Of a stretch of DNA of 43,936 nucleotides, positions 312 to 42,048 are shown one piece after another. This DNA is from Bordetella parapertussis (GTDB lineage Bacteria > Pseudomonadota > Gammaproteobacteria > Burkholderiales > SG8-39). Location: positions 1-43,936 of the forward strand of contig CAMDFL010000014.1 in NCBI GenBank assembly GCA_945897475.1, read 5' to 3'. Under the pieces are notes generated by a model that searched no databases, was not told the DNA's origin, and worked only from the letters and a program-made list of their open reading frames with translations. The position numbers and the translations under genes are program-made. Each line of letters starts with the position of its first letter. Position 1 is the stretch's first letter.

Positions 312-2291
312 TCATTCCGCCGACAACGCCACCACCGGGTCCAGCCGCGAGGCCTTGCGCGCCGGCATGTAACCGAAAATCAATCCAGTGAAAAAAGCGC
401 AGCCAAAAGCGAGCAGCACCGGCCCAGGCGAATACACCACCGATTTGCCGAAGCCCTGAATTATCGCGGCGGTGCCCAGCCCCCCCACGACGCCGAGCAC
501 CCCGCCCAGCGAGGATACCACCAGCGCCTCGGTGAGGAACTGCTGCATGATGTTGCGGGTGCGAGCGCCCGTGGCCATGCGGATACCGATTTCGCGAGTG
601 CGCTCTGTCACCGAGACCAGCATGATGTTCATCACGCCGATGCCGCCCACCAGGAGTGAGATCGCCGCCACCGCGCCAAGCAGCAGTGTCAACGTGTTCT
701 GCGTCTCGGAAGCCGTCTCGATATAGGAGGCCATGTTGCGAATGAAAAAATCGTTGGTGCGGTGCCGCTCCAGCATTAGGTTGGTGACCGCCTCCTGGGT
801 TTCATCGATTTGCGTGGTGTCGTCCACCGCGACGGTAATGGTTCGAAGATGGCGCCGGCCAAACAGACGCAGTCCCCCGGTGGTGAGTGGCACCAGCACC
901 GTGTCGTCCTGATCGGCGCCAAAGGGCGTCGCGCCCTTGATCGACATCACGCCTATCACCTGGCAAAGAATATTCTCCACCATGATGTATTTGCCTATCG
1001 GGTCAGTGCCTCGGGGGAACAGGGTATCGGCCACCGTCTGGCCGATCACCACCACCGAAGAATATTCGCGTACATCATTGGCCGAAAAGAAAGTGCCGGC
1101 GGACAGCGACCAGTTGCGGCCGATCGGGAACGACTCCGAAGTCGCGGTGGCCGAAGTCTGGTAGTCGACATTGCCAAATCGCACCGTCACACCGCCCCCC
1201 ATCTCAGGCACAGCAGCGAGAATATTGGGCAATCTCGACAATGCCTCGGCATCGTCAGGGATCAGGGTGGAGATACCCCCGCCCTTGCCGCCCCGATTCG
1301 CCGCGCCGGGCCGCACCAGCAGCAGATTGACGCCCAGGGAACTGATGCGATCCATCACCTCCTTGCGCGCGCCATCGCCCACCGCGAGCATGGTGATCAC
1401 CGAACCCACGCCGATGACGATGCCCAGAAGTGTCAGCACGGTGCGAAAAAGATTCGCCCGCAAGGCGCGCACCGCGGTTTTCGCAGCTTCGAAGAACCCC
1501 GCAATCAAGGGGATTTCGCGATCCTCCGGGACAGGTAATTCGGGTGTGCCCTCCAACGCCGCTTGCGGCCCGGGATCGGCGATGATATTGCCATCGCGAA
1601 TTTCTATGATGCGCCGCGCCTCGCGCGCCACTTCGGCGGCGTGGGTGATCAGGATGATGGTATGGCCACGGCGCGAGAGTTCACGAAGAAGGTTCATGAC
1701 CTCGGCGCCGCTCTTTGTATCCAGCGCACCTGTCGGTTCATCGGCGAGGATGATGCGCCCGCCATTCATCAATGCCCGCGCGATCGACACGCGCTGCTGC
1801 TGGCCGCCGGAGAGCTGATTGGGGCGGTGATCGAGCCGATCACCCAGGCCCAGGGTCTCCAGCAACTGCTCGGCACGCAACTCGCGATCGGACGGCGACA
1901 TTCCCGAATACACCGCAGGCACTTCGACGTTCTCAACTGCCGTGGCCGTGGCGATCAGGTTATAGCTCTGGAACACGAAACCGAATGCCTCGCGGCGCAG
2001 ACGCGCCAATTCATCGCGATCGAGATCGGAGACGTCCTCACCCATGAAGCGATAGCTGCCGGTGGTGCAACGATCCAGGCAGCCCAGAATATTCATGAGC
2101 GTGGTTTTCCCGGAACCGGACGCGCCCATGATGGCGATGAATTCACCGGAATAAATTTTCAGCGAAACGCCGTGCAACACCCGCACCGCAAGCTCGCCGC
2201 TACGATAGGTCTTGGTGACATCGACGAGTTCAATTAACGGCGGCGTCTGCGCCATTTCGGGTTCGATTCGGGGTTCGGGGTCTCGTTTCAT
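312..2291 (-). CDS. macB: MacB-type ABC transporter: ATPase fused to permease
   Basis: The 659-residue product has the MacB layout. The N-terminal ATPase shows Walker A (GASGSGKTT, residues 56-64), the signature LSGGQ (160-164) and Walker [12 protein letters not shown] (about 180-190). A first membrane segment follows ([19 protein letters not shown], about residue 285 on), then a large periplasmic MacB core, then a C-terminal FtsX-type block with three hydrophobic segments and the motif [15 protein letters not shown]. In this family ATP hydrolysis drives a periplasmic motion that pushes substrates (macrolides, peptides, lipids or siderophores) through the MacA adaptor and an outer-membrane channel. 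The gene starts 17 bp after macA and is followed by an outer-membrane factor gene, so the three probably form one tripartite pump operon. Met13 is an alternative start. The substrate cannot be read from the sequence. Confidence 0.93.
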
Positions 2292-2308
2292 GGCTGGCCG
2301 CGCTTTCG

Positions 2309-3889
2309 TTATATTTTTGCGGCGAACTTGGGCGCGCCGCCGCCCTTGCCTGCACCGCCGCCTTTGCCGGCACCACCCGGTCGCCCGCCAGTCTGAACCT
2401 GTTCTCCGGGTTGCAAGCCTTCCAGAATTTGCGCAGAAACGCGATTCATCATGCCGACCTTCACTTCGCGATCCTCGACGCTGCCGTCTTCCTTGGCTAC
2501 CCGGACCATGGCGCGTCCATTAGCGAACTGACCACGTGGATCCTGGGAAGCTCGCGTATCGCCTGAGCGCACGCCACCCTCCCCTTTGCCTGGCGCCCCG
2601 CCCTTTTTCGCCGCCGGACTGGCCACGGCGGAATCCGCGCCATCTCGCTTGCCTTGCGCACGCCCTTTTTCGTCGCCACTCGGAAGCCCCTCGCCACGCC
2701 GCCTGCCTTCACCCCGACCTTCCGCGCTGCCCTTGCCCTCCTCGGCCTTGGTGCTATCGGCCTTGGCGCCGCTCGCATTGGCCGCATTGGCTTTTTCCGT
2801 ACCAGCGCCCTCCTCCTTGGCGCCTGCGCGGCGCCCACCACCGCCCACCGGCCGCAGCGCAGTGATCGGCACGAACACCGCATCGCGCGCAGACGCAGCG
2901 ATGAAAAATACCTGCGCCGTCATCTGCGTCATCAACTCACTGGTGGTATTGGGCACATCGAACAAGGCGTCGTAGAGCACCACGTTATTAACCACGTTCG
3001 GCGTGGGATTGATCTGGCGAAGCGTGCCATACCAGCGCCGAGTGTCGCCGCCCAAGGTGGTGAAATACACCTCCATGCCGACTTTGAGCTTGGGCACGTC
3101 GGCCTCCGATACCTGCGCCTGCACCGTCATCACCGAAAGATCGGCCAGGCGCAGGACTACAGGCGCCTGCTGGTTGGCGTTGAGCGTCTGACCCTGCTTG
3201 ATGGGGAGCGAGGCGACCGTGCCCGACATAGGTGCAAAAATCTTGGTGTAACCCAGATTGGCCTCGTCACCGCGCAGGCTGGATTCGGTTTGCTGCATCT
3301 GCGCGCGTATCGAATCGATCTGCGCGGTAATCGAACGCGCCGAAGCCTCCGCGCTTTGCAGCGCCTCGGCGGTGGTGGCGTTCTCTTTCATCAAACCACG
3401 CTGGCGCTCCTGCTGCGACTCGGCCAGGGCGAGTTGCGATTGTTTGTCGCGCAACTGCGCCTGTTGATTGCGCAACTGCGCCTGATTGGCATCGACGCGC
3501 GATTGAAACACCGTTGGATCGATCTCGGCGAGCAGGTCACCTGATTTCACGGTATCGCCTATGGCCACCTTCAACACTTTCAACTGGCCTGAGACCTGGG
3601 TGCCAACATCGACAAAATCGCGTGGCTGCAGCGTGCCGGTGGCGGTAACCGCGTCTTCAAGATCACCGCGTTGCACGGTGGCCGTGGCGACACGCTCACG
3701 CGTGGCATCCGTTGCGTACCAGGTCTTCCACGCATACCAGCCTCCACCGGCCACGGCGGAGAGAATCAGAAGCGCGCTGATCCAAACAAACCCGGAGCGC
3801 TTCTTGCGGCGACGCGCTCGCGGGGACGGCGCCGCCTGTCCTGCGGCGGTTTGCCCAGGCATGACAGGGATGTCTATCTTGCTATCCAT
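2309..3889 (-). CDS. macA: MacA-type periplasmic adaptor (membrane fusion protein) with a long disordered insert
   Basis: This 526-residue protein has a basic N-terminus, one membrane anchor (about 34-57), a lipoyl-like half ([18 protein letters not shown], about 84-101), a Gln/Ala-rich coiled-coil hairpin (about 130-205) and beta-barrel segments ([16 protein letters not shown], then 245-345). That is the order expected of the adaptor linking MacB to an outer-membrane channel. The oddity is residues about 348-455: a Gly/Ala/Lys/Glu/Arg-rich, low-complexity stretch of about 108 residues between the barrel ([10 protein letters not shown]) and the membrane-proximal domain ([22 protein letters not shown]). 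The C-terminus repeats GGAGKG. Typical MacA proteins are about 370-400 residues, so the extra length is explained by these segments. It is the first gene of the pump operon; repeat copy A and the dnaE 3' end lie upstream. Confidence 0.9.
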
Positions 3890-4076: not shown

Positions 4077-4096
4077 GAGGTCGGTAAAAAATATAA

Positions 4097-4146
4097 GTAT
4101 CAGAGCGGTCTGGTCAGTATCAGAGCGGTCTGGTCAGTATCAGAGC
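4097..4146. repeat. 20-bp tandem repeat, 2.5 copies, at the dnaE 3' end
   Basis: GTATCAGAGCGGTCTGGTCA is repeated exactly twice and then partly (GTATCAGAGC), ending 14 bp before the dnaE stop. A 20-base block, ATAAGTATCAGAGCGGTCTG (4093-4112), recurs at 21983-22002 between yajC and secD, so the unit is not purely local. Confidence 0.9.
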
Positions 4147-4159
4147 TTTCTATTAAACC

Positions 4160-7100
4160 TCATGAAAACAGCACTTCAACGTTCTCCGGCTGCAGCCAGC
4201 TGCGAAGTTCTTTCAATAAATTGTCGTCGGGACTGACGCGCCAGTCATCGGGCAGGCGCATATCGACAATGCCGCCGTCGTTCTCGTAATGTATAGCCAC
4301 GGGGCAATTGCCGTTTCGATACGGCTCGAGCATCTTCTTCAATCGCGTCGCGCTTGCCGCGCCGGCGGCAGAGGCATTGCCGTTGAGCGACAGGCGCATC
4401 AGACGCGCGTAGCGGCTTCGCGCCGTCGCCAGATCGATGATTCGCTTCGCCTCGACACGCAATCCACCGCTGAACTGATCCATGCTGGCCTTGCCCTGGA
4501 TGATTACCGGGGCATCTTCCTTGATGTGATCGCGCGATGCGTCATAGACCTCCGTGAACGCGGTGACCTCAATCTGCGCAGTGCCGTCATCGAGCACCAA
4601 CACCACCATGCGACCGCGGCGCGTTTGCAGCATGCGTGTGGAGACGATGATGCCCGCGAGCAGGGTGCTCTCCACCGGCGAGCTCAGATCAGCCAGTCTG
4701 CCCTTGACGAATCCGCTGATTTCCTTGGCGTAGAAATCATAGGGGTGGCCGGAAAAGTAATAGCCAAGGGCGAGTTTCTCCTCGCGCAATTGATCGGGTT
4801 GGTTCCAGCGCTGCGTCTCCACGGACTTCAATACGGCGTTGGCGGCCTCGTCAGAGCCCCCAAAAAGACTCGCCTGACCCGCTGCACGCTCGGCTTGCTC
4901 AGCAGCTTCCATGGCGATGCCCACGGTGGCCAGGAGGCTCGCGCGATTGTCGAGCAAGGAATCGAACGCGCCGGCGCGCACCAGCGCCTCGACCGCGCGC
5001 CGATTAACAATGCGCCGGTCGCTACGGCGGCAAAAATCGAATAAGTCGGTGAACGGGCCATTTTTTTCACGCTCGGCAATGAGCGCTGTGATCGCCGATT
5101 CGCCTGTGCCCTTGATCCCGCCCAGGCCATATCGAATGCTGCTCGCGTCCACCGGATCAAATCGATAAATCCCCTGGTTGACATCGGGGGGCAGAAGTTT
5201 GATGCCATTGGCCCGCGTATCCTCGGTGAACTGATGCAGCTTGTCGGTATCGTCCATCACCGCAGACAAGTTGGCCGCCATGAAGGCCGATGGAAAGTAC
5301 GCCTTCATGTACGCGGTCTGATACGCGACCAGAGCGTAGGCCGCGGCATGGGATTTGTTAAAGCCATATCCCGCGAACTTTTCCATCAGGTCGAATATTT
5401 CGCTCGCCTTGTGCCCGCTCAAACCATTTCCCGCGGCGCCCGCGGCGAAGATGTCGCGCTGCTCGGCCATTTCCTCGGCCTTTTTCTTGCCCATGGCGCG
5501 GCGTAGCAAATCGGCGCCACCCAATGAGTAGCCGCCGATGATCTGCGCCATCTGCATTACCTGCTCCTGGTAGACCATGATGCCGTAGGTCTCCGCTAGA
5601 ATCGTTTCGACACGCGGGTCAGGATAGTTGACCGCTTGCCTGCCGTGCTTACGCTCGCAAAAATCAGGGATCAAATCCATCGGCCCGGGGCGATACAGCG
5701 CCACCAAGGCGATGATGTCCTCGAATCGGTCGGGACGGGCGCGCTTGAGCAAGTCCCTCATGCCACGCGATTCAAACTGGAACACGGCGCTGGTATTGGC
5801 CGATGTAAATAGTTGGTAGGGCTTCAAATCATCGAGCGGGATTGCGTTCAGGTCGAATTTCGGATCGTGCAGTCGGCGCACATGCCGCGTCGCCCAATCG
5901 AGGATGGTGAGCGTGGTGAGACCAAGGAAGTCGAATTTCACCAGTCCCATGGCCTCGACGTCGTCCTTATCCAATTGCGAGATGGTGTTACTGGCGCCTT
6001 GCGCCACGTACAAGGGACAAAAATCGGAGAGCCTCCCGGGCGCAATCAGCACCCCGCCCGCATGCATGCCGACGTTGCGCGCCAGGCCCTCCAACTGCAT
6101 GCAGAGCTCCAGCAACTGCCGCGTTTCCTCATCGTCCTTTTCGCGTTGGTTGATTTGCGGCTCGACTTCGCGCGCATAGACAGTCTGCGTGTCGTTCTTG
6201 TCGGTGCGCCGGCGCAGCGTGATGGTCTTGCCCGGTTGGAATGGAATCAATTTCGCCAACTCATCGGCGCGGCTATAGGGCCATTCGAGCACTCGGGCCA
6301 CGTCGCGCACCACTGCCTTGGAGGCCATAGTGCCGAAGGTGGCGATCTGCGACACCGAATCGCGGCCGTATTTGTCGCGCACGTAGTCGATAACCAGATC
6401 GCGCCCCTCCTGGCAGAAGTCAATATCGAAGTCGGGCATCGACACCCGCTCAGGGTTCAGGAATCGCTCAAACAAAAGCTTGTAGCGCAGCGGATCGAGA
6501 TCGGTGATCCCCAGAGAATATGCCACCAGCGAACCCGCGCCCGAACCGCGGCCCGGCCCCACAGGAATGCCATTGGGAAAACGCCCATCGCGATACGTTT
6601 TGGCCCAATTGATGAAGTCGGCCACGATCAGGAAGTAACCCGGAAAACCCATGGCAACGATGGTCTTCGCCTCGAACGCCAGGCGCTCCTGGTAGCGCGG
6701 CGCCGCATCGGAGCGCGCCCCTGCATCAGGATAGAGATGCTGCAATCGCGACACCAAACCGGCCTGGGCCTGCTGCAATAGATAATCGTCCAGGCTCACT
6801 TTTTCGGGCGTTGGAAACAGGGGCAGCTTGGACCTGCCCATTTCGAGTTCCAGATTGCAGCGGCGAGCAATCTCGACACTATTGGCGAGCGCCTCCGGAA
6901 TGTCGGCGAACAAGGTCGCCATTTCCGCCTGCGAGGTAAAGTAACATTTCGGCGTGTACGCACGCACACGGCGCCGATCGCCCAGCACATAGCCCTCGGC
7001 GATGCACACACGTGCTTCGTGCGCTGTGTGTTCATCAGGCGTCACGAATTGCACCGGGTGGGTGGCCACCAGCGGCAGATCGAACTTGCCCGCCAGGGCG

Positions 7101-7657
7101 ATGGCGCCTTTCAGCCAGGTTTCCGATTGCGCCATGCCGGCGCGCTGTATTTCCAGGTAAAACCTGCCCGGGAATAATGCTCCCCAGGTGGCGGCGAGCG
7201 TCGATGCCGCCTGCGTGTTACCAGAGAGCATCGCCACGGCAATCTCGCCTTGTTGCGCCCCGGAGAGGCAGATGAGGCCATCTGTGCCCTCCTCGAACCA
7301 ATGCCTTTTAATCTCGCCGCGACCACGATGCTGGTTTGATAGCCATGCGCGCGACAGCAACTCGGATAATCGCAGGTAGCCATTGCGCGATTGCGCCAGC
7401 AACAAGGCGCGAAACGGCTTGTCCCGCTCGGTCTCGTTGGTGATCCAAACATCGCAACCGATGATGGGTTTGATACCCGCGGCGCGCGCCGCTTTATAAA
7501 ACTTCACCATGCCGAACATGTTGGCGAGATCGGTGATCGCGAGCGCAGGCATGGTGTCATCGAATGCCGAGCGCACGGCTTGGTCGACCCGAAGCACACT
7601 GTCGGTAATCGAATACTCAGTGTGCAAACGCAAATGGACGAAGCTAGGGTGGATCAT
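4160..7657 (-). CDS. dnaE: DNA polymerase III alpha subunit (replicative polymerase)
   Basis: The product is 1165 residues from the ATG at 7657, close to the usual DnaE length of about 1160. I chose this start because MIHPSFVHLRLHTEYSITDS matches the normal DnaE N-terminus; the frame stays open 27 codons further but that extension looks non-conserved. In order there are an N-terminal PHP domain (HTEYSITDS, then ALAITDLANMFG), the polymerase core with the metal-binding aspartates in MPDFDIDF and KFDFLGLTTL, GPGRGSGAGS, the fingers/tandem HhH region (NKSHAAAYALVAYQTAYMK), an OB-fold (LLAGIIVSTRMLQTRRGRM) and a C-terminal tail. It acts in the replisome, copying the chromosome on the beta clamp. 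It stands alone here, with repeat element A and a 20-bp tandem repeat just downstream. Confidence 0.97.
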   Translation of the reverse strand: MIHPSFVHLRLHTEYSITDSVLRVDQAVRSAFDDTMPALAITDLANMFGMVKFYKAARAAGIKPIIGCDVWITNETERDKPFRALLLAQSRNGYLRLSELLSRAWLSNQHRGRGEIKRHWFEEGTDGLICLSGAQQGEIAVAMLSGNTQAASTLAATWGALFPGRFYLEIQRAGMAQSETWLKGAIALAGKFDLPLVATHPVQFVTPDEHTAHEARVCIAEGYVLGDRRRVRAYTPKCYFTSQAEMATLFADIPEALANSVEIARRCNLELEMGRSKLPLFPTPEKVSLDDYLLQQAQAGLVSRLQHLYPDAGARSDAAPRYQERLAFEAKTIVAMGFPGYFLIVADFINWAKTYRDGRFPNGIPVGPGRGSGAGSLVAYSLGITDLDPLRYKLLFERFLNPERVSMPDFDIDFCQEGRDLVIDYVRDKYGRDSVSQIATFGTMASKAVVRDVARVLEWPYSRADELAKLIPFQPGKTITLRRRTDKNDTQTVYAREVEPQINQREKDDEETRQLLELCMQLEGLARNVGMHAGGVLIAPGRLSDFCPLYVAQGASNTISQLDKDDVEAMGLVKFDFLGLTTLTILDWATRHVRRLHDPKFDLNAIPLDDLKPYQLFTSANTSAVFQFESRGMRDLLKRARPDRFEDIIALVALYRPGPMDLIPDFCERKHGRQAVNYPDPRVETILAETYGIMVYQEQVMQMAQIIGGYSLGGADLLRRAMGKKKAEEMAEQRDIFAAGAAGNGLSGHKASEIFDLMEKFAGYGFNKSHAAAYALVAYQTAYMKAYFPSAFMAANLSAVMDDTDKLHQFTEDTRANGIKLLPPDVNQGIYRFDPVDASSIRYGLGGIKGTGESAITALIAEREKNGPFTDLFDFCRRSDRRIVNRRAVEALVRAGAFDSLLDNRASLLATVGIAMEAAEQAERAAGQASLFGGSDEAANAVLKSVETQRWNQPDQLREEKLALGYYFSGHPYDFYAKEISGFVKGRLADLSSPVESTLLAGIIVSTRMLQTRRGRMVVLVLDDGTAQIEVTAFTEVYDASRDHIKEDAPVIIQGKASMDQFSGGLRVEAKRIIDLATARSRYARLMRLSLNGNASAAGAASATRLKKMLEPYRNGNCPVAIHYENDGGIVDMRLPDDWRVSPDDNLLKELRSWLQPENVEVLFS

Positions 7658-7797
7658 TGGGTCGCCGTGAAAAGCTCCGACGATTTTACACCCCTGTTTT
7701 TTTCGCGGGCCCGGAACCGGGGACTCACGATGATCCAAGCAAGCAAAAAGCGGAAAAGTGGAAAAGTGGAAAAACCGTGGTACGTCTGGCGAGTTTT

Positions 7798-8844
7798 CTA
7801 CATGAAGAAGAAACCGCCCTTGCGATCAATCATGACACTGGGGATGCGCTTGTGGATCGCGGCAAGCCTCACCGGAATCGGCGCAAGGTCTCGTGCCTCG
7901 ACACGCGTCTGCGCGGTATCTTTTGCCGCGACCACCAGTATCGGTGCGGCAAACGCGACAAAGCTTCGATCCTCAACCGACGCAGGCGGAATGGCTGCAA
8001 GAAGACCGGATCGCTCCTCAACCGGCGCGACAAACGCAACAAAGCTTTTATCCTCCACCGAAGCCAGGGGTATCGAAATCCAATTTCCCGACCTGTCCTC
8101 GACAGGCGCGGCAAACGCGATGAGCACCCTCTCTTCGACTTGCGCCCTTGGAATGGGAAGCAAGACCACCGAACCCTCCGCCACCGGGGCGGCGTAGGCC
8201 GCGACCCTTACCTCGGCTATGCTTGGCAAGGAGGCGGTGTGCGCCACGGCCGTCACCCCCACACTGCCGCTTGCGGCCTCCGGCGCCGATAGCGACGCAA
8301 TAGCGCTTGCGCCTGAATCGCCTCTGCGCGCGAGCGCCGGCGCGAACAGGGCATTGAACATCCCAATCGTCGGACGTTGGCTCACCAGCCGGTCGACATC
8401 CAGCGCGCTGCCCGAGGGCGCCGACACATAAACCCGCACGAAGGGCACGCGCAAATCGCCCAGTTCCGCTGCGCGACCTGGCGCGAGCAAAATCGCGCCA
8501 GCTTTGCTGAGCGTGAAACGTTCAGCGCCAATCAGGTACACGCGGCCATTGTTCAAGATTTGACCATTGCGCACCGTGGAATCGCCGCGTCGCTGGGTGC
8601 TGTCCGGGAGCCTATCGTTGCCACCCGTGCCTCCAGATCGCGGCACGTTGGCCACAGTGACTTCGAATTTACCGATATTCATTGCCGGTCTTGAAAAATC
8701 AGGACCACTCAAGGAGGCCACCCATGCGGGATCTCCCAAAGGCGAGATCTGCGAGGAATCCGGTGGATTGGCTAATGCAAATATCGGCCCCATCAACCCC
8801 ATGGCAAGGGCAAGACTTTGAGCCATTCTTTTGCATGTATGCAT
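7798..8844 (-). CDS. Secreted protein resembling a fragment of the filamentous-haemagglutinin family, with 27-residue repeats
   Basis: From the ATG at 8844, with GAGG five bases upstream, the product is 348 residues. It begins with a signal peptide (hydrophobic core to about IFALA). The segment NNGRVYLIGAERFTLSKAG, then ILLAPGRAAELGD and VRVYVSAPSGSALDVD, resembles the ILLAAG..VEL.D...VRV.VTAP.GEAL stretch of large FHA-type adhesins passed through TpsB transporters. The protein lacks the long beta-helix of an adhesin and has no tpsB partner here. Its C-terminal third holds three and a half imperfect 27-residue repeats (AAPVEDRSG...IPLASVEDKSFVAF type). It could be a shrunken adhesin or a separate small secreted protein; its function is unknown. 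ORFs on the opposite strand here are mirrors of the repeat composition. Confidence 0.6.
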   Translation of the reverse strand: MHTCKRMAQSLALAMGLMGPIFALANPPDSSQISPLGDPAWVASLSGPDFSRPAMNIGKFEVTVANVPRSGGTGGNDRLPDSTQRRGDSTVRNGQILNNGRVYLIGAERFTLSKAGAILLAPGRAAELGDLRVPFVRVYVSAPSGSALDVDRLVSQRPTIGMFNALFAPALARRGDSGASAIASLSAPEAASGSVGVTAVAHTASLPSIAEVRVAAYAAPVAEGSVVLLPIPRAQVEERVLIAFAAPVEDRSGNWISIPLASVEDKSFVAFVAPVEERSGLLAAIPPASVEDRSFVAFAAPILVVAAKDTAQTRVEARDLAPIPVRLAAIHKRIPSVMIDRKGGFFFM

Positions 8845-9018
8845 GTGAGCCTCGATTCCTAGAATGCATCCAAGGTCGCGAAATTGCCTGCTACTCAACA
8901 CCATTTAGCACCGGAGAGAATATACAGTGTTGCTCAAATGTCTATCGTCGGCCATTTTCCCGCAATGTTGGTGCCCGCGCCGGGTAGCATTCTCCCGACC
9001 CGCCTGGTGATTTTTGCG

Positions 9019-9682: not shown

Positions 9683-10705
9683 TTAGGCCACCATCTCCAC
9701 TGGCGCTTCGCCCTGCGCTCGCGCCGCGATTTCGCCCAACACATAGACGATTTCACCCTGAGTCTCGAGCAAGCCCTTGGCAGCCGCAGCATCCGCGCTC
9801 GACACAATCACCACCATGCCGATTCCGCAATTGAACACGCGGTGCATTTCCGCCTCCGCCACGCCACCCTCCTGCTGCAACCAGATAAATAAAGGCGGCA
9901 TCGGCCAGGAGGACTTGCTGATTCGCGCGCAAACACCATCAGGCAGGACACGCGGCACGTTTTCCACGATGCCCCCGCCAGTGATATGTGCCATGCCTTT
10001 GACCGTCATAGCCGCTATCAGCGCAAGCAGCGGTTTCACATAAATTCGCGTCGGTTCCATAACAACATCGGCCAGTTTGCGGCCGTGAAAATCACCATCG
10101 AGATCAGGCTTTGAGCGTTCCAGAATCCGGCGTACGAGCGAGTAGCCATTGGAGTGCGCGCCGCTCGAAGCAAGGCCGAGCAGCACGTCCCCGGGAGCGA
10201 TGGTTTTCCCCGAGATGATGCGGCTTTTCTCCACCACGCCGACGGCGAATCCAGCAAGGTCATACTCCCCCGCCGGATACATGCCCGGCATCTCCGCGGT
10301 CTCACCGCCAATCAACGCACATCCGGCCAGTTCGCAACCGCGGGCGATACCGCGCACCACTTCGGTGGCCACCGCCACATCCAGCTTGCCGCAGGCGAAG
10401 TAATCCAGAAAAAAAAGCGGCTCCGCACCCTGCACAAGGATGTCGTTGACACTCATCGCCACCAGATCGATGCCTACGGTGTCGTGGCGCTTTAAATCGA
10501 AGGCTAGCCTCAATTTTGTTCCGACGCCGTCGGTGCCCGAAACCAGCACCGGCTCACGATATTTTTTCGAAATTTCGAACAGCGCGCCGAACCCGCCTAT
10601 GCCCGCAAGTACTTCAGGCCGCTGGGTGCGCCGCGCAAATGGTTTTATCGCCTCGACCAGGGCATCACCGGCGTCAATATCGACGCCGGCGTCGCGATAA
10701 GTCAT
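9683..10705 (-). CDS. purM: Phosphoribosylformylglycinamidine cyclo-ligase (AIR synthetase)
   Basis: PurM closes the imidazole ring in de novo purine synthesis (FGAM + ATP to AIR). From the ATG at 10705 the product is 340 residues, close to the family's about 345, beginning [17 protein letters not shown] as usual. Visible family motifs include [68 protein letters not shown] and [20 protein letters not shown] 19 codons upstream (10762) would add a low-complexity Ser/Pro/Asn lead; neither start has a clear ribosome site. The gene is divergent from the AI-2E-type permease and hda, an arrangement common in betaproteobacteria. Confidence 0.96.
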
Positions 10706-10811
10706 TGAGGCCGGCGAATTGAGTTTTGGCGAATCGGAGTTTGGCAATTTGGAACCAGTCACGAAAAGGTATCACCGGGTTGCGACTATTAAAGTCTGAA
10801 ATGTTAAAGTG

Positions 10812-16998: not shown

Positions 16999-17061
16999 AT
17001 AAGCGCATAAGCAACCTAAATAAGCGCATAAGCAACCTAAATAAGCGCATAAGGCACCTAA
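16999..17061. repeat. 21-bp tandem repeat, three copies, ending at the panC start
   Basis: ATAAGCGCATAAGCAACCTAA occurs twice exactly and a third time as ATAAGCGCATAAGGCACCTAA, filling the whole panB-panC gap to 1 bp before the panC ATG. The third copy alone contains AAGG, 8 bases before the ATG, and may serve as the ribosome site for panC. The motif GCRTAAGCAACCTAA resembles the outer edges of hairpin elements B and C. Confidence 0.92.
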
Positions 17062-18608: not shown

Positions 18609-18653
18609 ACCCGGATGTTTTACTTAACCCGGATGTTTTACTTAACCCGGATA
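18609..18653. repeat. 18-bp tandem repeat, 2.5 copies, at a gene 3' end
   Basis: ACCCGGATGTTTTACTTA is repeated twice and followed by ACCCGGATA. It spans the stop codon of the 18642-18878 gene: on the minus strand CCGGGTTAA occurs twice, so the codons for Pro-Gly plus the stop have been duplicated into the 3' untranslated part. Confidence 0.9.
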
Positions 18654-19255: not shown

Positions 19256-20298
19256 ATGCCAGTGAACACGCACGATTTTGAATTTGACCTTCCCGCGACG
19301 CTGATCGCGCAGTCTCCCCCGCCAGTACGCGGCGCAAGCCGACTTTTGCATGTTTCGGGCCAGAACCTTACCGACCGGGTTTTTGCGGATTTGCCCGACC
19401 TTCTGCGCGCAGGCGATGTTCTGGTGTTCAACGACACTCGTGTCATCAAGGCACGCCTGCAAGGCGAAAAAGCCAGCGGCGGACGCATCGAAGTACTCAT
19501 CGAACGCGTCATCGGCGAGCATGAGGCGCTCGCGCAAGTGCGTGCCAGCAAAGCACCCCGAGCTGGGACAAAACTGCTATTCGAGGCAGGCATCTCCGCC
19601 GAAGTCCTGGGCCGAGACGACGACCTTTATCGGCTTCGATTTTCGGGCGAGGCAACGCTGGATGCATTACTGGATCGGCATGGTGAGATACCACTACCCC
19701 CGTACGTCACTCACAAGCCAACACCCGAGGACGAAGCGCGTTACCAGACTGTCTATGCTCGGCAATCCGGCGCGGTCGCGGCGCCGACTGCAGGCTTGCA
19801 TTTTGATCGGGCTATGCTCGATCAACTAAAATCGCGTGGCGTGGATCTGGCGTGGTTGACCTTGCACGTGGGCGCGGGAACTTTTCAGCCGGTGCGCACC
19901 GAGCGCCTGGAGGATCACCAAATGCACTTGGAACGCTATTGCATCCCCGAGGAAACGCGTGCGGCGGTATTGAAAGCCAAGGCAGGCGGCGGTCGCGTGA
20001 TCGCCGTGGGTACCACCTCGATGCGCGCGCTTGAATCTGCGGCCATCGATCAAACCCCGGCAAGCTTGGATATTCGCAGCGGCGAGGATGAGACGCGGCT
20101 TTTTATTCTGCCTGGATACCGGTTTCGCGTGGTGGATCGCCTCATCACCAACTTTCATCTTCCGCGTTCCACGCTGCTCATGCTGGTATCGGCGTTCGCG
20201 GGTGTTGCCGAGATTCAGCACGCCTATGCCCATGCGATCCAGAATCAATACCGATTTTTCTCCTATGGCGACGCCATGCTGATCGACAGCTTAGATCT

Positions 20299-20302
<4 letters not shown>
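19256..20302 (+). CDS. queA: S-adenosylmethionine:tRNA ribosyltransferase-isomerase
   Basis: QueA adds the cyclopentenediol part to preQ1 in tRNA (queuosine pathway). The 348-residue product contains [22 protein letters not shown] near the start, [62 protein letters not shown] and [17 protein letters not shown], all characteristic of the family. Length is normal (about 350). Its stop TGA overlaps an ATG (ATGA at 20299-20302) that opens the first of two duplicated mini-ORFs before tgt. Confidence 0.97.
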
Positions 20303-21451
<1,149 letters not shown>

Positions 21452-40878: not shown

Positions 40879-42048
40879 TCAAGTCGATCGCGACGGCAAT
40901 CGTGAGGCCAATTGATCGCGACGCGGCTTTTGCACAGCGGCGCGTTGTGCCCCCGCTCTACCGGACTGGACTTTTTGATCTAGTGACTTTTGAGACAGCG
41001 ACTTTTGAGACACTGCCTTTTGCGACGCCGACTTTTGCGACGCCGACTTTTGCGACGCCGACTTTTGCGACGTGCCTTTGCGTGACGCCGATCTGGCGAC
41101 CGAAGGCGGATTAATACCCTCAGCGGCCTCGAGCCATTGCCTGACGCGCAAGGCATCGACGCTGCGCGAGTTTTTTCCCCAGGAATCGAGCAACACAATT
41201 ATCACGGCGCGGCCGGCAAGTTGCGCCTGCATGACCAAGCAACGCCCGGCCTCATTGATGAAACCGGTTTTCGACAGGCCAATGCCCCAACCCGGATTTG
41301 CCACCAAGCCATTGGTATTGCGGTACGCGAGCTTGCGTCCAGACACCTCGGCATCGTGCTGGCGCAGCGTGGAGTATTCGCGAATCTTGGCGTAGCTGTG
41401 CGCGTGGGCGACCAGCGCGGCCAGATCTTCCGCAGTGGAAACATTGCTGCTGGACAATCCGGTCGAATCCGCGAATCGCGTGCCACGCAAACCCAGGAAC
41501 AGCGCTTTTGCATTCATGGCGAGAATGAATGCGTCGCGTCCGCCGGGGTAAGCGCGCGATAGCGCCGACGCAGCGCGATTTTCGGAAGACATCAGTGCCA
41601 GGCGCAACATTTCGTCGCGGGACAACGCCGCGCCCAGGTGGAGGCGCGATTGGGTATTGCGAAGGTAATCGACCTCTTGGTCGGTAATCACGATCAGTTC
41701 ATCGGCGTCCAGTTGCGCGTCAAGGACCACCATAGCCGTCATCAACTTGGAAATTGAGGCGATCGGATGAATCGATTGCGAGTTCTTGCCATAGAGAATT
41801 TCGCCGGATGCCTGGTCGAACACCACAGCAGCGGTTGAATTGAGAATCAGCTTCGAGGTCGGATGCAATGCCTGGCTTGCCTGCGTTGACACGATTGCCT
41901 GACTTGCAGGGGGAGCGCTCAACTCAAGGGCTTGTTTGAGATCCTGACCATTCGCCAAGGCACCCGTGGCAAAGCCTAGACACGCACCGAGACAGGCAAG
42001 CCCCAAATGCCGTTCAATCACCAAAGCGAAACGGACGATTGTTTTCAA
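40879..42048 (-). CDS. pbpG: PBP7-type D-alanyl-D-alanine endopeptidase with a repetitive tail
   Basis: This periplasmic penicillin-binding-type serine enzyme (peptidase S11) trims peptidoglycan crosslinks. The 389-residue product has an N-terminal hydrophobic signal/anchor (about 8-32), then the active-site motifs SISK (S98, K101), SEN (155-157) and KTG (260-262). Residues about 325-360 are a tandem of SQKSA-type pentapeptides (seven or so units) encoded by 15-bp repeats (40984-41074), and the last 30 residues are basic. The core is about the normal PBP7 length (310), so the tail is an addition. A putative promoter lies 70 bp upstream. Confidence 0.92.
   Translation of the reverse strand: MKTIVRFALVIERHLGLACLGACLGFATGALANGQDLKQALELSAPPASQAIVSTQASQALHPTSKLILNSTAAVVFDQASGEILYGKNSQSIHPIASISKLMTAMVVLDAQLDADELIVITDQEVDYLRNTQSRLHLGAALSRDEMLRLALMSSENRAASALSRAYPGGRDAFILAMNAKALFLGLRGTRFADSTGLSSSNVSTAEDLAALVAHAHSYAKIREYSTLRQHDAEVSGRKLAYRNTNGLVANPGWGIGLSKTGFINEAGRCLVMQAQLAGRAVIIVLLDSWGKNSRSVDALRVRQWLEAAEGINPPSVARSASRKGTSQKSASQKSASQKSASQKAVSQKSLSQKSLDQKVQSGRAGAQRAAVQKPRRDQLASRLPSRST

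Follow-up and report, generated by a model that had tools for sequence, protein, structure and literature searches.

A short protein gene of two-partner secretion ancestry in the purM–dnaE interval of four genera of Burkholderiales

The gene and its product

The DNA considered here is a stretch of 43,936 nucleotides, hereafter the window, that covers positions 1 to 43,936 of the forward strand of contig CAMDFL010000014.1 (GenBank assembly GCA_945897475.1), deposited as Bordetella parapertussis and placed by GTDB in Burkholderiales; SG8-39. On its minus strand, at 7798..8844 and within the interval between a purM-like and a dnaE-like gene, lies the coding sequence of a putatively exported protein of 348 amino acids, which runs from an ATG to a TAG stop (7798-7800) and is supported by its open reading frame (ORF), by orthologues and by the ratio of nonsynonymous to synonymous substitution rates (dN/dS). 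Judged by sequence comparison, the gene belongs to a discrete, real protein family that was detected only in four genera of uncultured bacteria and has no name in the libraries searched, and the descent of its product from TpsA, the protein that TpsB secretes in two-partner secretion (TPS), is well supported. In the description that follows, the window genome and its copy of the gene are denoted G000, other genomes by numbers of the same form, and genera by g1 to g14.

The start ATG at 8844 is immediately preceded by GAGG, and an in-frame ATG upstream at 8904 offers an alternative start that would give a product of 368 amino acids. Residues 1-25 (8770..8844, minus strand) resemble a signal peptide when the translation is read by eye, without a predictor: KR is followed by a hydrophobic core and by A-L-A before NPPD, and cleavage would fall between A25 and N26. 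In the N-termini of the orthologues, likewise read by eye, A-x-A followed by NP or GP is kept. No match for the protein was found in Pfam, NCBIfam or PHROGs, and the protein alone gave none against the genome contigs, nor by tblastn against plasmids. As whole-protein relatives, a chemotaxis-kinase-like ORF on contig C212 (E 0.02) and an unrelated ORF in G047 (2.7e-4) were rejected, both matches being compositional by inspection.

Ancestry in the TPS domain

Residues 89-175 (8320..8580, minus strand) are a remnant of the C-terminal end of the TPS secretion domain, an assignment based on homology and on matches of the family profile to the PDB, and include the ILLAPG..VSAP stretch (residues 118-143, 8416-8493) that the original prediction had likened to FHA and other large two-partner adhesins. 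Searched alone, with the database size set to 50,000, these residues match 20 of 21 TpsA N-termini at E <= 2.1e-4, with a best score of 43.0 bits, while the maximum among 200 shuffled versions was 11.0 bits and the reversed sequence scored 5.0, so the resemblance is not a matter of chance. Residues 26-88 and the repeat region yielded no match above 5.1 bits among the same 21 TpsA N-terminal regions; the signal thus comes from the TPS segment and not from low-complexity sequence. The TPS ends of the TpsAs were searched with phmmer. A TpsA encoded on contig C161 of the window genome itself matches residues 90-168 at 3.1e-7; unlike the window protein, it has a full TPS domain (123 bits), the NPNG motif and a beta-helix-like continuation that extends to the contig end.

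Support for this ancestry is found in the relatives as well. Nine family copies (window, G001, G058, G037, G052, G112, G106, G104 and G113) were tested against PF05860, the cut-off of which is 33.5 bits. It is exceeded in G037 (39.9 bits) and G106 (38.3); G052 (31.6), G112 (30.0), G058 (27.9) and G104 (21.3) score below it, and no hit was obtained in the window copy, in G001, or in G113, whose copy is truncated where its contig stops. In the PDB, the family profile finds the TPS domains of HMW1 (2odl, 5.2e-12, profile positions 25-216), HxuA (3.1e-11) and EtpA (2.5e-7), the entries matched being 2odl, 4i84, 8vba and 8cpk. The AlphaFold model of the G106 protein has a mean predicted local distance difference test score (pLDDT) of 42.9, but reaches 70-80 in parts of residues 31-180, and a Foldseek search with it places TpsA structures in all of the first eight ranks, with alignments of 82-91 columns. 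In a tree built from the end of the TPS domain, which offers few columns and gives long branches, the family is united with a support of 0.90.

What the family has kept of this domain is graded, with much retained in g14, less in g6 and only the end in g1; in the genus of the window, more than the first half of the domain is unrecognisable. The NPNG motif, which is visible in the TpsAs of G000, G002, G037, G052 and G058, is absent from all five family copies that span the site (checked by script), and alignments show that the mid-domain section of TpsAs is missing from family members. The g14 copies L081 and L078 carry an additional conserved segment after the TPS domain (RFYRYALLYA ... VKSR.S.LP..IEIGAP), which is partly helical in the G106 model.

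Compared with TpsA of the HMW1/HxuA/EtpA branch, the family shares a signal-peptide-like start, the TPS ancestry and the same final coils (VELxD..P.LRV.xxAPxxEAxNL..LV...GIF). It differs in lacking NPNG, the mid-domain section, the beta-helix body and an adjacent tpsB, and in having a length of 348-630 amino acids, a repeat linker and a C-terminal signature of its own. The window protein shows TPS homology, and falls outside TpsA by the PF05860 cut-off, the NPNG motif, the beta-helical passenger and the tpsB in operon. A cognate tpsB in the same operon is usual, though not universal, for TpsA. Short ORFs with a TPS domain also occur elsewhere in the order. Among eight such loci that were read, five run into the 3′ end of their stretch, two are short canonical TPS frames, and the eighth, in G382, looks frameshifted at its end. 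The two canonical frames, on G310 contig C1 (L171, 538 amino acids) and G285 contig C32 (L174, 404 amino acids), resemble the family in their TPS domain and short length, and neither runs into a contig end. They differ from the family in keeping NPNG and the whole TPS domain, and their genomes, which by their numbers belong to the order scan, are not among the five genomes of that scan that match the C-terminal profile described below.

The repeat region

Between the TPS remnant and the C-terminus, residues 210-305 (7930..8217, minus strand) form a VE(D/E)R repeat region with a compound unit of 27 residues, made up of 12 and 15. The motif VE(D/E)(R/K) occurs at residues 236, 248, 263, 275 and 290, so that spacings of 12 and 15 alternate, and the lag-27 self-match of the protein (35/79) was reached in none of 5000 shuffles. 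At the DNA level, three 51-nt copies (7942-7992, 8023-8073 and 8104-8154) are spaced by exactly 81 bp and show 78% and 61% identity to the reference copy. Tandem Repeats Finder reported nothing in the region even at a score of 30, and hence the 81-bp array that had been predicted is present in a degenerate state. In G001, a different species of the same genus, the alternation of 12 and 15 continues through 12 modules, compared with five VE[DE]R-type modules in the window copy. The periods found elsewhere are 22/44 in G052 and G112, 36 in G106 and G104, and a weak 15/30 in G058; as they differ between lineages, the linker repeats appear to turn over by lineage. The linker is rich in Pro, Ala and Val and changes fast, and the AlphaFold models have no confident structure in the repeat region. 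Five of 13 copies of the gene are interrupted by a contig end, where a crude uniform model would expect 1.9 (P about 0.025), which is suggestive of repeat polymorphism or of assembly trouble in the repeats.

A family with a C-terminal signature

The protein closes with a conserved signature of 24 residues (325-348; 7801..7872, minus strand), of the type RRxPxxMIDxRGxxFFM. In the AlphaFold models of the window and G106 proteins, the very C-terminus is a short strand-turn-strand of low confidence. The first relatives found were G001 (Betaproteobacteria bacterium RIFCSPLOWO2_02_FULL_62_17, 61% identity), G058, G005, G037 and G052, and a C-terminal profile of 24 columns was built from five rows (G000, G001, G058, G052 and G005). 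Within the bacterial family, for which 98 genomes were scanned, it matches 13 at E <= 2.6e-10, with the next match at 0.011; five of these 13 carriers are the source of the profile, which leaves eight independent ones. Carriers make up 2/3 of the genomes of g1, 1/2 of g4, 3/7 of g6 and 7/14 of g14, which amounts to 13/26 across these four genera and 0/72 elsewhere. In samples from the order (399 genomes) and the class (369 genomes), no strong match was found apart from the window genome, and weak partial matches (2.1e-4 to 0.0075) occurred in four and three genomes, respectively. Of the 13 carriers, none besides the window genome was reported in the order and class samples, and these samples are therefore informative on other bacterial families and not on this one. 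A scan of GTDB contigs with one peptide pattern, covering 29 stretches, recovered seven relatives, all from metagenome-assembled genomes of Betaproteobacteria/Burkholderiales and all copies among the known carriers. That the signature is a general tail of TpsA was considered and rejected, since ten complete TpsA C-termini do not have it and the order and class samples yielded no strong match beyond the window genome. A description of such a family was not found among the literature titles and openings of abstracts consulted, which is not to say that none is in print.

The purM–dnaE locus

On the minus strand of the window the genes follow in the order purM-like (9683..10762), glyoxalase-family (PF00903, 9058..9654), family gene and dnaE-like (4160..7738, with a start probably at the ATG at 7657). 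We take the first and last of these, which served as upstream and downstream syntenic anchors and as search queries, to be purM and dnaE from the look of their sequences; a glyoxalase-family gene also lies between purM and the family gene in G001. Linkage to purM, to dnaE or to both is seen for 12 of the 13 copies. Seven (G000, G001, G058, G052, G112, G106 and G047) lie between the two on one contig; in G005 the halves of the gene are at two contig ends, one adjoining purM and the other dnaE; in G103, G109 and G037 the contig of the gene also holds dnaE (at a distance of about 12 kb in G037), and in G104 it holds purM. The remaining copy, in G113, is on a 3.2-kb contig and could not be placed. 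Wherever placement is possible, the family gene is oriented like the anchors. The corresponding interval of 40 other genomes, with both anchors on the contig in 38 and the dnaE side only in G102 and G105, was searched with the profile, which detected no family ORF (the best match, at E 0.015, is unrelated), and by tblastn, which at a threshold of 0.01 detected no remnant.

A perfect 20-bp tandem repeat of 2.5 copies (4096-4146) lies just past the dnaE stop, and farther downstream of dnaE are a MacB-like ABC transporter and an HlyD-family periplasmic adaptor (312-3889, minus strand). Elsewhere in the window, short tandem repeats of 21, 18 and 23 bp at 16999-17061, 18609-18652 and 20292-20358 lie between large ORFs, the last overrunning an ORF end, and a D-alanyl-D-alanine carboxypeptidase (Peptidase_S11, 40879-42048, minus strand) has a C-terminal array of SQKSA-type pentapeptides encoded by 15-bp units (repeats at 40985-41091).

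Selection on the family

Between the window copy and G001, dN/dS by the NG86 method is 0.19 overall, with 0.14 in the TPS end, 0.19 in the tail and 0.27 in the N-terminal part, and the window copy looks to be under purifying selection. Other pairs give 0.25 (G058-G113), 0.33 (G052-G112) and 0.37 (G106-G104), and in these three the middle is the least constrained part (0.35, 0.39 and 0.75, respectively). Internal stops were seen in none of the family copies, with the exception of G047, which is discussed below.

Origin and possible role of the protein

The reading that we favor, at a probability of roughly 0.45, is that of a lineage-specific family of small exported envelope proteins that descended from TpsA and lack a passenger, with two conserved ends joined by a variable linker. 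An ancestral TpsA-like gene at the purM–dnaE locus would have retained the signal peptide together with the last part of the TPS domain, while the beta-helical body was replaced by a fast-changing repeat linker that is closed by the conserved 24-residue peptide. The product may be exported by Sec and then reside in the periplasm or at the outer membrane, where it could serve as a spacer or adaptor with two ends: the beta stub left from the TPS domain, a POTRA-binding module in its ancestral state, and the C-terminal peptide would each bind a partner, and the repeats would set the distance between them. The original prediction had supposed a stand-alone small protein derived from an adhesin, without the adhesin body. 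The relatives with a TPS domain at the same locus and the profile matches to HMW1, HxuA and EtpA bear this out for an adhesin-type TpsA, and a large beta-helical passenger is missing from the 348 amino acids, whose repeats match none of the TpsA N-terminal regions, with the caveat that TPS ancestry, as read from sequence, does not make the ancestor an adhesin.

Several observations weigh against this reading. The dS between the window copy and G001 is 1.3-2.5, near saturation, which makes the dN/dS ratios rough, and in the same comparison the repeats (0.11) are as constrained as the ends, so that a rule of conserved ends and a free middle does not hold cleanly. The G047 copy (L084, contig C15, between dnaE and purM) is broken, with its start and end in different frames and most of its middle missing, and G002, of the same genus as the window, has only about 230 bp between purM and dnaE and no family gene; both indicate that the gene is dispensable. 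The AlphaFold model of the window protein (mean pLDDT 33.0) is uninformative and was kept out of the fold search, and so lends no support to a folded beta stub. Finally, the absence of a TpsB noted in the original prediction holds for the neighborhood of the gene and not for the genome, in which two ShlB-family genes are present on other contigs. ShlB genes occur in ten of the 13 carriers, which leaves room for TpsB secretion in trans.

Such secretion would make the protein a miniature TpsA, exported through its remaining TPS segment by a TpsB encoded elsewhere and carrying the repeats as a functional passenger. According to a review (PMC5422565), TPS domains bind the POTRA domains of TpsB, some TpsBs serve more than one TpsA, and the NPNG motif is crucial for folding and secretion. 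Together with the ShlB genes of the carriers and with the g14 members, which retain much of the TPS domain, the second of these points speaks for a miniature TpsA; we nevertheless consider it unlikely, given that NPNG is missing in every copy tested, that the window copy has no match before residue 89, and that ShlB was not found in the carriers G058, G113 and G109 (89%, 76% and 84% complete) and is present in 54 of 85 non-carriers, figures that reveal no clear link between the family and TpsB. The loss of NPNG in all these copies, and of a recognisable first half of the TPS domain in the genus of the window, is the reason why the window protein is probably no longer a TpsB-secreted passenger. 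The same lack of co-occurrence with ShlB detracts from a second possibility, in which the TPS remnant is not secreted but acts as a regulator or decoy, binding to periplasmic domains of TpsB, or of BamA/TamA, and modulating them. The retained part does derive from a domain of the POTRA-binding kind (PMC5422565), and loss of NPNG could hold the protein on the periplasmic side, but we regard this role as quite improbable.

Slightly more doubtful again is that the gene is the functionless last stage of a decaying TpsA gene. The progressive erosion of the TPS domain through g14, g6 and g1, the broken G047 copy and the clean absence in G002 would be expected of such a relic, but the other copies seen have no internal stop, the overall ratio of 0.19 disfavors it, and the C-terminal signature has been kept across four genera. 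As for a secreted repeat protein that is unrelated to TpsA and resembles it by chance, the window protein has no match in the three domain libraries and some of its weak whole-protein matches are compositional; with 43 bits set against a shuffle maximum of 11, orthologues above the PF05860 cut-off and PDB matches of the family profile, this notion is refuted for practical purposes.

For the preferred reading of a small envelope protein without a passenger, one further step can be imagined, although we think it unlikely in this specific form: a secretion-recognition domain, degraded in steps and fixed at a single chromosomal locus, would have turned into a non-secreted envelope module, joined by the VE(D/E)R spacer of variable length to a new conserved C-terminal peptide, and this two-ended adaptor may attach to Omp85/POTRA machinery while not being a substrate of its export. 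Should the favored reading prove true, the family would offer a graded evolutionary series where a domain recognised by a secretion pathway has survived the loss of its passenger and probably that of its role in secretion, and the 24-residue signature would let annotation recognise a family that Pfam, NCBIfam and PHROGs leave unnamed.
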